Shown here one piece after another: positions 13,430-16,001 of a stretch of DNA of 32,424 bases. Source of the DNA: a virus; the IMG/VR virus record IMGVR_UViG_3300020274_000015, positions 1-32,424 of that record, one strand, 5' to 3'. Under the pieces are notes generated by a model. It saw nothing but the letters and a program-made list of their open reading frames with translations, had not been told where the DNA came from and did not search any database. Every line of letters starts with the position of its first letter. Position 1 is the first letter of the stretch. The translations under genes and the position numbers were made by a program.

Positions 13430-14548
13430 TTAGAATGCAGAAGGAGCTGTAGCACCAACATACAATTCAACAGCAGCAGCTGGGTTTAAGTAGTCTGCAC
13501 CCATAGCCATGCGACCTAAGATCACATCGCCTTGGTAGATTACTGAAACATCTCCATTTGTTACTTGGACTTGTGGGCCGATAGCCTCGACAACTCCAGC
13601 AGCTTCTTTTTGGAAAATTAAACCAGCAGATTTAGCACCTAGCTCAGCGTTGGTACCGTAGTCGTTGTTTACTCCGCCAGTAGCATTAGCATTTTCTGGT
13701 GTAGGTCCAATGAAATCACCAAGATTTCCAGGACTTGTTTCACCTGTTGTACCGCCGTACTTGATACCATACTTACCTAAGAATGGAATATTCATAGATT
13801 TAAATATCTGAATACCAGCGATTTCGATAACGCCATTACCACCTTGTAAAGCAGTACCCTGTACGTCTCTATTAACTAATCCGTTAGAACCGATGTCCTG
13901 AATTAGTGCATAGTATTGACGTGGGTTTAGTACAGCACATCTACCATCAGTGCTAACTCCTTTTTCATCTAAAGCAGCAGCAGCATCATAAAATGCGTTT
14001 ACTAGGTTTCCAGCGTTGAAAGCATCAGATTCGTTAGTTGTAGCACCAACTCTGATTTGTGTTCCACCAGGCTCTACAAAGTTTGTTGCAGATACTGGAG
14101 ATGCAGATCTAGCTCCTCGTGTAATTGAACGGAAGATTAGTCTGTCATATTTCTCAGCAAGAGCATATCCAATCTTTTTAGATATTTCTCCTCTCAATTC
14201 ATAATGTGCAAGTGTCTCATCTAAGTCATAAACAAAAGCAGAACTGATTAATAGATCGTCCATTACGATTGTTTTTTCTGCGACTGGAGGAGCCTTGTCA
14301 GCATTTCCAAGTATGGGGGTTCCAGGTGTGTGGAACGAACTTGTCATGCGTCCAGTGTAGATAAACTGCAATGATTTGCCGTTCTTTAAGGTTCTCTTAG
14401 TAACGAGATCTCTAGCGATAGTCTCGTGTTGGAAGCCTTTGAACATCTCTCCACTGAACAATTTTAAGTACAAATTATACTTATCATTGTAGCCAGTACC
14501 AGTCGCTAAATTTGAGCGACCTAAACTGACCTGATTAGCATTAGCCAT
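13430..14548 (-). CDS. Major capsid protein, T7 gp10-like
   Basis: Major head protein of 372 aa (T7 gp10A is 345 aa) with the HK97-type fold of the family. Recognisable segments are GYNDKYNLYLKLFSGEMFKG near the N-terminus, FIYTGRM at about 63, and DLLISSAFVYDLDETLAHYE around 97-116, which parallels the T7 gp10 pattern ending in DLD...H. Others are GRCAVLNPRQYYAL around 203 and GVVEAIGPQVQV near the C-terminus. The start at 14548 lacks a strong Shine-Dalgarno sequence (AACTGAAAAAATG). It is preceded by a 180-base structured leader and followed by a strong terminator. Normally scaffold and capsid genes are adjacent in T7; here small genes, hli and psbA lie between them, as reported for P-SSP7-like phages. 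Confidence 0.95.
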   Translation of the reverse strand: MANANQVSLGRSNLATGTGYNDKYNLYLKLFSGEMFKGFQHETIARDLVTKRTLKNGKSLQFIYTGRMTSSFHTPGTPILGNADKAPPVAEKTIVMDDLLISSAFVYDLDETLAHYELRGEISKKIGYALAEKYDRLIFRSITRGARSASPVSATNFVEPGGTQIRVGATTNESDAFNAGNLVNAFYDAAAALDEKGVSTDGRCAVLNPRQYYALIQDIGSNGLVNRDVQGTALQGGNGVIEIAGIQIFKSMNIPFLGKYGIKYGGTTGETSPGNLGDFIGPTPENANATGGVNNDYGTNAELGAKSAGLIFQKEAAGVVEAIGPQVQVTNGDVSVIYQGDVILGRMAMGADYLNPAAAVELYVGATAPSAF

Positions 14549-14727
14549 TTTTTCAGTTAAAAATTAAAGGTATATTTACTTGTCTTGTCGTACGAAAAGT
14601 TGCGAGTCTTATGCGACTCTTTTGTTATGTGGTCTATCCCACCGTCATGACGGCTGATGAGTATCCTCGTAAGGGTCAAAAGCCAAAGTGATAAGGGAGG
14701 ACTTGCACCTCCCAGTCGGCTTACCGA
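14549..14727 (-). promoter_or_regulatory. Structured, probably non-coding leader before the capsid gene
   Basis: No convincing ORF is seen in these 179 bases. In transcript order they hold a TCGG-TAAG-CCGA hairpin starting directly at the stop of the 32-aa ORF (14716-14727) and GGGAGG-TGCAAGT-CCTCCC (14695-14713). A stem closed by GGCT/AGCC with an inner CCT-TACG-AGG follows, then CCGT-CATG-ACGG (14642-14653) and GAGTC-GCATAA-GACTC (14604-14619). T7 has an RNase III site and a strong class III promoter before gene 10; one of these elements may play such a part. I cannot identify a phage promoter by sequence. Confidence 0.55.
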
Positions 14728-14826
14728 TTATCTTTTTGTGTATGTGATACCACGATACTTAAGTTTCATTTCTCTTTTGAAATCTTTTTGCTCTTTTAAT
14801 CGAGCTTGCAATTCTACTGGAGACAT
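14728..14826 (-). CDS. 32-aa small protein with DUF4278-like C-terminus
   Basis: A 32-aa ORF, MSPVELQARLKEQKDFKREM followed by KLKYRGITYTKR. GAGG lies seven bases before the ATG (TGAGGTTAATTATG), a good ribosome binding site. The ending MKLKYRGITY matches the pattern MxLxYRGxxY that I associate with cyanobacterial DUF4278 proteins; similar short ORFs are, as far as I recall, common in cyanophages. Its function is unknown. It lies between psbA and the capsid gene, directly behind a strongly structured RNA segment (14838-14925) that could control its translation. The frame extends upstream to an ATG at 14925, but that part would run through the RNA structure and looks unlike protein, so the shorter start is preferred. 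Confidence 0.62.
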   Translation of the reverse strand: MSPVELQARLKEQKDFKREMKLKYRGITYTKR

Positions 14827-14837
14827 AATTAACCTCA

Positions 14838-14925
14838 GTATCAGATCCCCGTTCCATGATCTGATCGCATGCGTCCCTATTAGGGATGAACGGACGTGGC
14901 TGCCAGTGTCTAGTAACACCAGCAA
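14838..14925 (-). ncRNA. Candidate pseudoknotted RNA element downstream of psbA
   Basis: Read on the minus strand this segment folds into nested and crossing stems. GCTGGTGT/ACACTGGC forms eight pairs (two of them G-U) around a TACTAG loop. TCCC-TAATA-GGGA lies at 14874-14886. ATCAGATC (14858-14865) pairs with GATCTGAT (14840-14847), eight Watson-Crick pairs around a ten-base loop. GAACGG within that loop (14849-14854) is complementary to CCGTTC (14888-14893), which would create a pseudoknot. The element ends 11 bases before the start codon of the 32-aa ORF. Function is unknown; I infer a regulatory or processing element. Confidence 0.5.
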
Positions 14926-14966
14926 TAATAAATAGATTTGTAATTAAGGTTAAAATTAATGTAAAT

Positions 14967-16001
14967 CTATGCAAGGTCAAGTGGGAAGTTATGTGCGTTA
15001 CGCTCATGCATAACCTCGAAACCTAAGTTTTGTCTGTTAACTATGTCAGCCCATGTTGGAATAACTTTACCGTTAGCATCAACAACTGACTGGTTAAAGT
15101 TAAATCCATTTAGGTTGAATGCCATAGTAGCTATGCCCATAGAGGTACACCATATGCCAACCACGGGGAGAACAGCCAGAAAGAAGTGTAGAGAGCGAGA
15201 ATTGTTAAAACTTGCATATTGGAAAAGTAAACGTCCGAAGTAGCCGTGAGCCGCAACGATGTTATATGTCTCCTCTTCCTGTCCAAACTTATAACCATAG
15301 TTTTGAGCTTCCAATGCAGTCGTCTCTTTAATAAGAGAAGATGTAACCAAACTTCCGTGCATAGCAGAGGCAAGAGCACCACCGAATACGCCAAGAACAC
15401 CGAGCATATGGAAAGGATGCATAAGGATATTATGTTCTGCCTGAAATACAAACATAAAGTTAAAAGTACCAGAAATACCAAGAGGCATACCATCACTGAA
15501 ACTCCCCTGACCGAAAGGGTAGACAAGAAATACAGCGAATGCTGCTGACACTGGTGCAGAGTAAGCTACTGCTATCCAGGGTCTCATACCTAATCTGTAA
15601 CTAAGTTCCCATTGTCGTCCCATGTAAGCAGAGACACCGATGAGGAAATGGAATACGATGAGCTGATATGGTCCACCGTTGTAGAGCCATTCATCAAGGG
15701 TTCCCGCTTCCCAGATTGGATAGAAGTGCAAACCGATTGCGTTTGATGATGGGACAACTGCCCCTGAGATGATGTTGTTTCCATAGAGTAATGAGCCAGA
15801 AACTGGTTCACGTATCCCATCTATGTCAACAGGAGGTGCAGCTATAAAGGCGATAATAAAACAGGTTGCAGCTGTAAGTAATGCAGGGATCATAAGAACA
15901 CCAAACCATCCAACATATAATCTGTTGTCTGTTGATGTAACCCACTTACATAACTCTTGCCACTTATTGGTTGTTTCTCTACTAATTGAGATTGCAGCCA
16001 T
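14967..16001 (-). CDS. psbA: Photosystem II reaction centre protein D1
   Basis: Phage-borne auxiliary photosynthesis gene; D1 is the fast-turnover core subunit that binds P680, pheophytin, QB and the Mn cluster in the thylakoid membrane. The 344-aa product aligns residue for residue with standard D1 numbering: Tyr161 (YZ), Asp170, Glu189, His190, His198, His215, Ser264, His272, His332, Glu333, His337, Asp342 and Ala344 are all in place. Residue 130 is Gln. The protein stops exactly after Ala344, so it lacks the C-terminal extension that the CtpA protease normally removes. Start [15 protein letters not shown] fits. It lies between the small-gene/hli cassette and the capsid gene, with a hairpin upstream (16029-16076). 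Intact catalytic and pigment ligands suggest a functional protein made during infection. Confidence 0.98.

Follow-up and report, generated by a model that had tools for sequence, protein, structure and literature searches.

The window, i.e., the whole 32,424-nt stretch of DNA analyzed, derives from a T7-like cyanophage. On its minus strand, psbA (14967..16001; Pfam Photo_RC, E 4.4e-89) is followed by a predicted riboswitch, a micro-ORF encoding 32 amino acids (14728..14826) and the major capsid gene (13430..14548; Pfam Gp10A-like, E 2.5e-69). A second conserved RNA (14628-14686, minus strand) lies between the micro-ORF and the major capsid gene, directly upstream of the latter. The psbA-capsid region of T7-like cyanophages has been studied for two decades, and P-SSP7 is among the nearest relatives of the riboswitch region.

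The initial annotation described a densely paired, pseudoknotted RNA just before the micro-ORF, and every pairing it listed was located on the minus strand where it had been placed. These pairings include an 8-bp hairpin with a 10-nt loop holding GAACGG, complementary to CCGTTC at 14893-14888, and a TCCC-TAATA-GGGA stem at 14886-14874. The ATG of the micro-ORF is likewise at 14826, 11 nt past position 14838, and is preceded by GAGG at 14836-14833.

Aptamer identity and architecture

The whole window was scanned against 4227 Rfam families with cmscan, and RF01704 (glutamine-II, "downstream-peptide", type 2) was the sole match at gathering threshold. The match covers positions 1-60 of the 60-position model and a 56-nt core at 14840-14895 (minus strand), with a score of 56.7 bits (gathering cut-off 33 bits; E 2.3e-11). 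The glutamine-I riboswitch family, RF01739, was rejected at 18.0 bits against a cut-off of 35 at the same site. The earlier suggestion of a cis-regulatory RNA was correct, and the RF01704 match, together with its recurrence in 16 of 19 phage regions (see below), permits naming it as a glutamine-II riboswitch. The other two suggestions, a ribozyme-like element or a stable small RNA, found no support, as only riboswitch families matched at the site. By these matches the window RNA is assigned to a class familiar from marine cyanobacteria, here borne by a virus.

The pseudoknot 5' strand CGUUC (14888..14892) is complementary to GAACG (14850-14854), forming the pseudoknot helix of the solved structure (PMC6698751). 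It is followed by the P1 hairpin UCCC-UAAUA-GGGA (14874..14886), which aligns to P1 of RF01704, and by the linking strand CGCA (14870..14873), which contains the C-G-C of the ligand site. The P2 hairpin (14840..14865) consists of 8 bp, AUCAGAUC (14865-14858) with GAUCUGAU (14847-14840), closed by the 10-nt loop AUGGAACGGG that includes the pseudoknot 3' strand. The pseudoknot with P1 and P2 reproduces the architecture of RF01704, and the predicted role of the CCGTTC/GAACGG pairing is that of the ligand-binding pseudoknot of the aptamer. When ligand-site positions were taken from the crystal structure (PMC6698751), C1, G2, G18, C19, C39, G40 and G41 were all present in the window alignment, G18 and C19 being supplied by the linking strand (PMC6698751). 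The glutamine-contacting segments CGUUC, CGC of the linking strand, CAUGGAACGGGG and AUGGAACGGGG are likewise present. RF01704 is associated with the 5' UTRs of ORFs of 17-100 aa, and here the 32-aa ORF begins 13 nt past the aptamer.

Across homologues the helices covary or change in concert. The 124 viral loci hold 72 distinct versions of the P1 hairpin and 47 of the 7-nt P2 5' strand, and the linking strand CGCA is found in all 124. That the pairing exceeds chance had been argued from its density; it holds instead through the covariance-model match and the homologues. Nested folding gave z -2.19 for the 88 nt and z -0.68 for the 56-nt aptamer alone, and such folding energy is weak evidence here because the pseudoknot is left out of the model.

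One of the annotated stems falls outside the conserved RNA. The GCTGGTGT/ACACTGGC stem does form 8 pairs at 14925-14899, two of them G.U, and the stem occurs in about 11 of 124 loci, within a conserved frame (..ITNLFIIAGVTRHWQPRPFIP..) showing synonymous changes. It was rejected as a riboswitch part, being present in a minority of loci with conservation that is coding, and coding conservation is its best explanation. An unannotated frame at 14759-15007 (minus strand), which overlaps the end of psbA and the aptamer, encodes this ..ITNLFIIAGVTRHWQPRPFIP.. segment, with synonymous changes in about 10 loci.

Distribution among cyanophages

Nineteen psbA-capsid regions of T7-like cyanophages (isolate or fosmid), picked by BLAST independently of any RNA pattern, were scanned against Rfam. 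RF01704 was above cut-off in 16 of these, P-SSP7 among them, representing a dozen or more genera; among the 19 regions scanned, it was absent above cut-off from S-SBP1, S-B28 and 7B11-B. A pattern scan of IMG/VR placed the aptamer on at least 120 viral contigs. Both pseudoknot strands were fixed by the search pattern, so that their conservation among these contigs carries no independent weight; the pattern did not select for the ORF, the capsid position, P1, P2 or the flanks. Among the matches listed, the major capsid gene lies downstream of the aptamer in 97 of 120 loci and psbA upstream in about 80 of 120, many of the others ending too early to tell; in 27 of these 120 listed loci the capsid gene is downstream and psbA was undetected upstream. 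The aptamer was initially attributed to the psbA 3' region, an origin that these loci do not bear out: it is the leader of the micro-ORF and also occurs without an adjacent psbA. Related phages carrying the micro-ORF and lacking the complementary segments were looked for, and none was found.

Putative expression platform over the ribosome-binding site

A second set of pairings extends from the aptamer into the coding sequence. Strand b, GAUACU (14837..14842, minus strand), comprises the last 3 nt of P2 and the next 3, and covaries with its alternative partner b', AGUAUC (14754..14759), which lies within the codons Lys-Tyr-Arg. In the predicted OFF hairpin, AGGUU/AACUU pairing covers part of the Shine-Dalgarno sequence GAGG (SD; 14833..14836). 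For the 87 loci in which b was anchored without reference to b', one position of the b-b' helix is U-A in 42, C-G in 39, G-C in 2, G.U in 2, U.G in 1 and mismatched in 1, and the next position is A-U in 40 and U-A in 38. Rare variants agree as well (GTG and TCG with GGTACT, AAA with GGTATT, ACC with GGTAGT). Mean duplex energy was -5.28 kcal/mol, compared to -3.24 (sd 0.16) for permuted partners and approximately -1 to -2.3 for shifted windows.

Alignment A2, made of 42 short-ORF relatives, was used to score as one hairpin b-b', the SD pairing and a small helix that flanks the start codon. Cells were paired at 92.4%, versus 82.5% when shuffled and 31-48% when slid, and covariation was 0.290 versus 0.129 shuffled (0/500 shuffles); only short-ORF relatives enter this count, and the N-terminal part of the window's own micro-ORF is long. 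A2 control (a) retains relatedness, and much of the signal comes from two large clades, so most weight falls on the rare variants and the slid control. Given no structure, RNAalifold recovers b-b' and the start-codon helix, and the ribosome-binding-site hairpin of the window itself has z -3.56, with 0 of 200 shuffles as stable.

An additional helix joins strand a, GCCACG in the aptamer 5' flank (14895..14900), to strand a', CGUGGU within the codons Arg-Gly (14749..14754). Its complementarity is well above permuted and shifted controls, yet only in a subset of loci. Helix a-a' is kept as secondary because two-sided changes on the capsid-protein tree are few and the helix is missing from many loci. 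A pairing between the YRG codons and the P2 loop was also considered and rejected, since it was almost never predicted. Neither b-b' nor a-a' was seen in any host leader examined, and the phage platform reaching into coding sequence is likely a new part.

Six relatives (L131, L138, L008, L013, L080 and L132) carry no recognizable SD. In these relatives, a UUCGUAC that precedes the aptamer is complementary to a GUACGAA immediately ahead of the ATG. This could represent a different expression platform that uses the first pseudoknot nucleotide, and the group (e.g., S-TIP37 and S-RIP1) seems to use another arrangement.

The micro-ORF and its peptide

The micro-ORF product, MSPVELQARLKEQKDFKREMKLKYRGITYTKR, contains a single DUF4278-like YRGxxY repeat and falls short of the Pfam PF14105 gathering cut-off (17.0 vs 25.3 bits, E 0.008). 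A YRGxxY micro-ORF follows the aptamer in 16/16 isolate or fosmid loci and, among the matches listed, in 116/116 contig loci with enough sequence. Viral micro-ORFs in the contig set are usually 13-51 aa with one motif each. In Prochlorococcus genome contigs that matched the search pattern used for the viral set, the ORF after the aptamer is 55-65 aa long, with three motifs (LTYRGKNY...LTYRRNVY...LNYRGVNYTK), and these host proteins match DUF4278 (PF14105) over its full length (E 9e-11 to 1e-9). The full-length, three-repeat form is a feature of the host proteins, the viral ORFs holding one repeat. Most viral relatives match only the C-terminal end of DUF4278 (profile positions of approximately 39-57), one of them above the cut-off (29.9 vs 25.3 bits). 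The best stretch of the window peptide aligns to profile positions 1-12, leaving the source repeat of this peptide uncertain.

Both the protein and the RNA appear to constrain this ORF. In viral ORFs the Val or Ile after YRG is kept through seven different codons, and amino-acid selection is visible on the micro-ORF. In the N-terminal part, outside the paired codons, codon-position entropy is 1.07/0.73/1.42, the third positions being the most variable. Among 75 distinct viral YRG cores, Arg is encoded by CGT or CGC (CGY) in 70 (93%, vs 39% genome usage), Gly by GGC in 50 (67%, vs 13% background) and the first Tyr by TAT in 73 (vs 60% background). The YRG codons are, to judge from this usage, constrained also as RNA.

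Proposed mechanism and alternatives

We conclude that the virus-borne glutamine-II riboswitch probably controls translation of the 32-aa micro-ORF (probability approximately 0.78). At low glutamine, a hairpin formed by b-b' and the SD pairing would keep the start closed. In the predicted structures, strand b is part of the aptamer's P2 or, alternatively, of the ribosome-binding-site hairpin. Glutamine would stabilize the pseudoknot and P2, P2 would reclaim strand b, and translation would begin as the hairpin weakens, giving a switch that is ON with glutamine. This direction agrees with the type 2 switch of Prochlorococcus, which is reported to activate on glutamine (PMC6316151), and with the proposal that the ligand frees an occluded ribosome-binding site (PMC6698751). 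A thermodynamic proof of switching was rejected, as the two states were not distinguished by SD accessibility in the model: with P2 enforced it was hardly higher (0.32 vs 0.29), because P2 costs the hairpin only 3 bp.

The switch might instead serve the major capsid gene, with the micro-ORF as a leader ORF and glutamine tuning late capsid expression via coupling or RNA processing. The frequency with which the capsid gene follows the aptamer (97/120 loci among the matches listed, often without psbA) and the presence of another conserved RNA between micro-ORF and capsid gene are in keeping with this, but the capsid start is located about 250-1400 nt past the aptamer, beyond that separate structured element, and the b-b' hairpin closes on the start of the micro-ORF itself. 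The micro-ORF also shows amino-acid constraint, with Val and Ile kept through seven codons, and host aptamer copies regulate their own DUF4278 ORF; we regard a capsid-serving switch as unlikely. A little less likely still is that the YRG codons are conserved solely for the RNA and that the micropeptide has no function in trans. Their pairing with UTR strands and the departure of Arg CGY and Gly GGC from genome codon use would suit an RNA-only reading, against which stand the third-position variability outside the paired codons, the recurrence of the YRG motif in proteins of the host, whose copies do not have the pairing, and the viral peptide that passes the Pfam DUF4278 cut-off.

It is hardly credible that the riboswitch is a piece of host DNA left over next to psbA without a function. 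Cyanophages do carry host-derived genes, and marine picocyanobacteria are where the class is otherwise known (PMC6316151). Against a remnant, the RNA is conserved across a dozen or more phage genera, its P1 and P2 having diversified without losing their pairing and its ligand nucleotides being intact, and it has a covarying platform of its own. Control of micro-ORF translation is the reading retained here. The presence of a metabolite switch in almost every one of these late regions, each with a 13-51-codon peptide gene overlooked by most annotations, suggests that the infection involves sensing of nitrogen status.

What the peptide does is less firmly indicated. It may act on the nitrogen-control target of the host DUF4278 protein as a minimal mimic or competitor, and mimicry of, or competition with, the three-repeat host protein is our simplest guess for its role. 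It is possible, if doubtful, that T7-like cyanophages rebuilt the host glutamine switch with their own coding-reaching ribosome-binding-site hairpin, and that the one-repeat peptide competes with the host's DUF4278 nitrogen regulator with its three repeats, so that nitrogen assimilation continues while capsids are made. The contrast between one and three repeats offers a direct handle on DUF4278 protein function, and for this question a laboratory system exists in P-SSP7 and Prochlorococcus MED4, the predicted peptide there being MKVTFVYRGVAYTRVIG.

Comparison with known systems

RF01704 copies of Prochlorococcus and Synechococcus share with the phage RNA the architecture of the aptamer, the pseudoknot and the ligand-site nucleotides, and they too stand before a small YRG ORF. 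The host copies examined differ in having an NtcA-like GTAGCAAnnGCTAC upstream, in preceding 55-65-aa three-repeat DUF4278 proteins and in lacking b-b' and a-a', whereas the phage copy drives a one-repeat micropeptide from a platform that extends into the coding sequence. The GTAGCAAnnGCTAC element, which has the look of an NtcA box, was observed 4-5 nt upstream of the pseudoknot strand in host aptamers (L142 and other Prochlorococcus loci).

The glutamine-I riboswitch (glnA, type 1; RF01739) has a ligand pocket similar to that of glutamine-II (PMC6698751), but is a three-way junction without a pseudoknot, unlike the window RNA. Genomes of T4-like phages and methylophages are reported to contain it (PMC9964418, PMC9004378). 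For glutamine riboswitches in general, the literature has mentions in T4-like cyanophages and a description from a methylophage (PMC9964418, PMC9602691, PMC9004378). The T4-like cyanophage P-RSM1 (L140, 1167-1217) has sub-threshold scores for glutamine-I (28.9, cut-off 35) and glutamine-II (26.0, cut-off 33) before a hypothetical gene.

Yfr6 of Prochlorococcus MED4 is also a downstream-peptide RNA (PMC2518516, PMC2864571) with a conserved ORF, of 33 aa; it differs in being host-encoded and in having an antisense partner, Yfr14. The GS-inactivating factor IF17 (gifB) has an N-terminal DUF4278 moiety, and its synthesis is under a glutamine riboswitch (PMC6316151). This moiety stabilizes IF17 rather than inhibiting glutamine synthetase (PMC6316151), so the label "GS inhibitor" is unjustified for the phage peptide. 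Inhibition resides mainly in the IF7-like C-terminal part of IF17, for which a 32-aa single-repeat peptide, judged by its length, has little room.

Neither the RNA class nor its ligand nor its association with small ORFs is new (PMC6698751, PMC6316151, PMC2864571). A partial literature search returned no report of a glutamine riboswitch in T7-like cyanophages, but Rfam would annotate these sequences automatically. As far as could be checked, the near-constant arrangement of riboswitch, one-repeat micro-ORF and capsid gene is new, as is the predicted phage-specific platform reaching into coding sequence.

A second conserved RNA before the capsid gene

The second RNA is found in about 100 loci, nearly all of the T7-like cyanophage loci compared (L001-L137), among them S-SBP1 and S-B28, both without the riboswitch. 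It contains a GGNN/N'N'CC helix, a hairpin, a conserved GAUACC, the palindrome CCGUCNNGACGG and GUGG-GAUAGA-CCAC. In 80 distinct sequences its 12-pair structure has 99.3% of cells paired and 7 pairs with two-sided changes; covariation over the same 80 sequences was 0.420, compared to 0.122 shuffled (0/500) and 0.04-0.14 when slid. At E values up to 5, it has no match in Rfam. An HDV-like theta ribozyme, an idea suggested by a real tRNA-Gly directly upstream in cyanophage NATL1A-7, was rejected by inspection, as the strand order mismatches P1-P2-P3-P1'-P4-P2'. In NATL1A-7 this true tRNA-Gly (L125, 2741-2811) ends exactly where the second RNA starts; other phages have a GGAGCACCTCAGAGTCGGACTCC hairpin in its place. 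In the window, a tRNA-like fold just before the second RNA (approximately 14687-14742, minus strand), with its 5' strand overlapping the end of the micro-ORF, consists of a GAUAA/UUAUC closing stem, a UCGG-UAAG-CCGA hairpin and a T-arm-like GGGAGG-UGCAAGU-CCUCCC.
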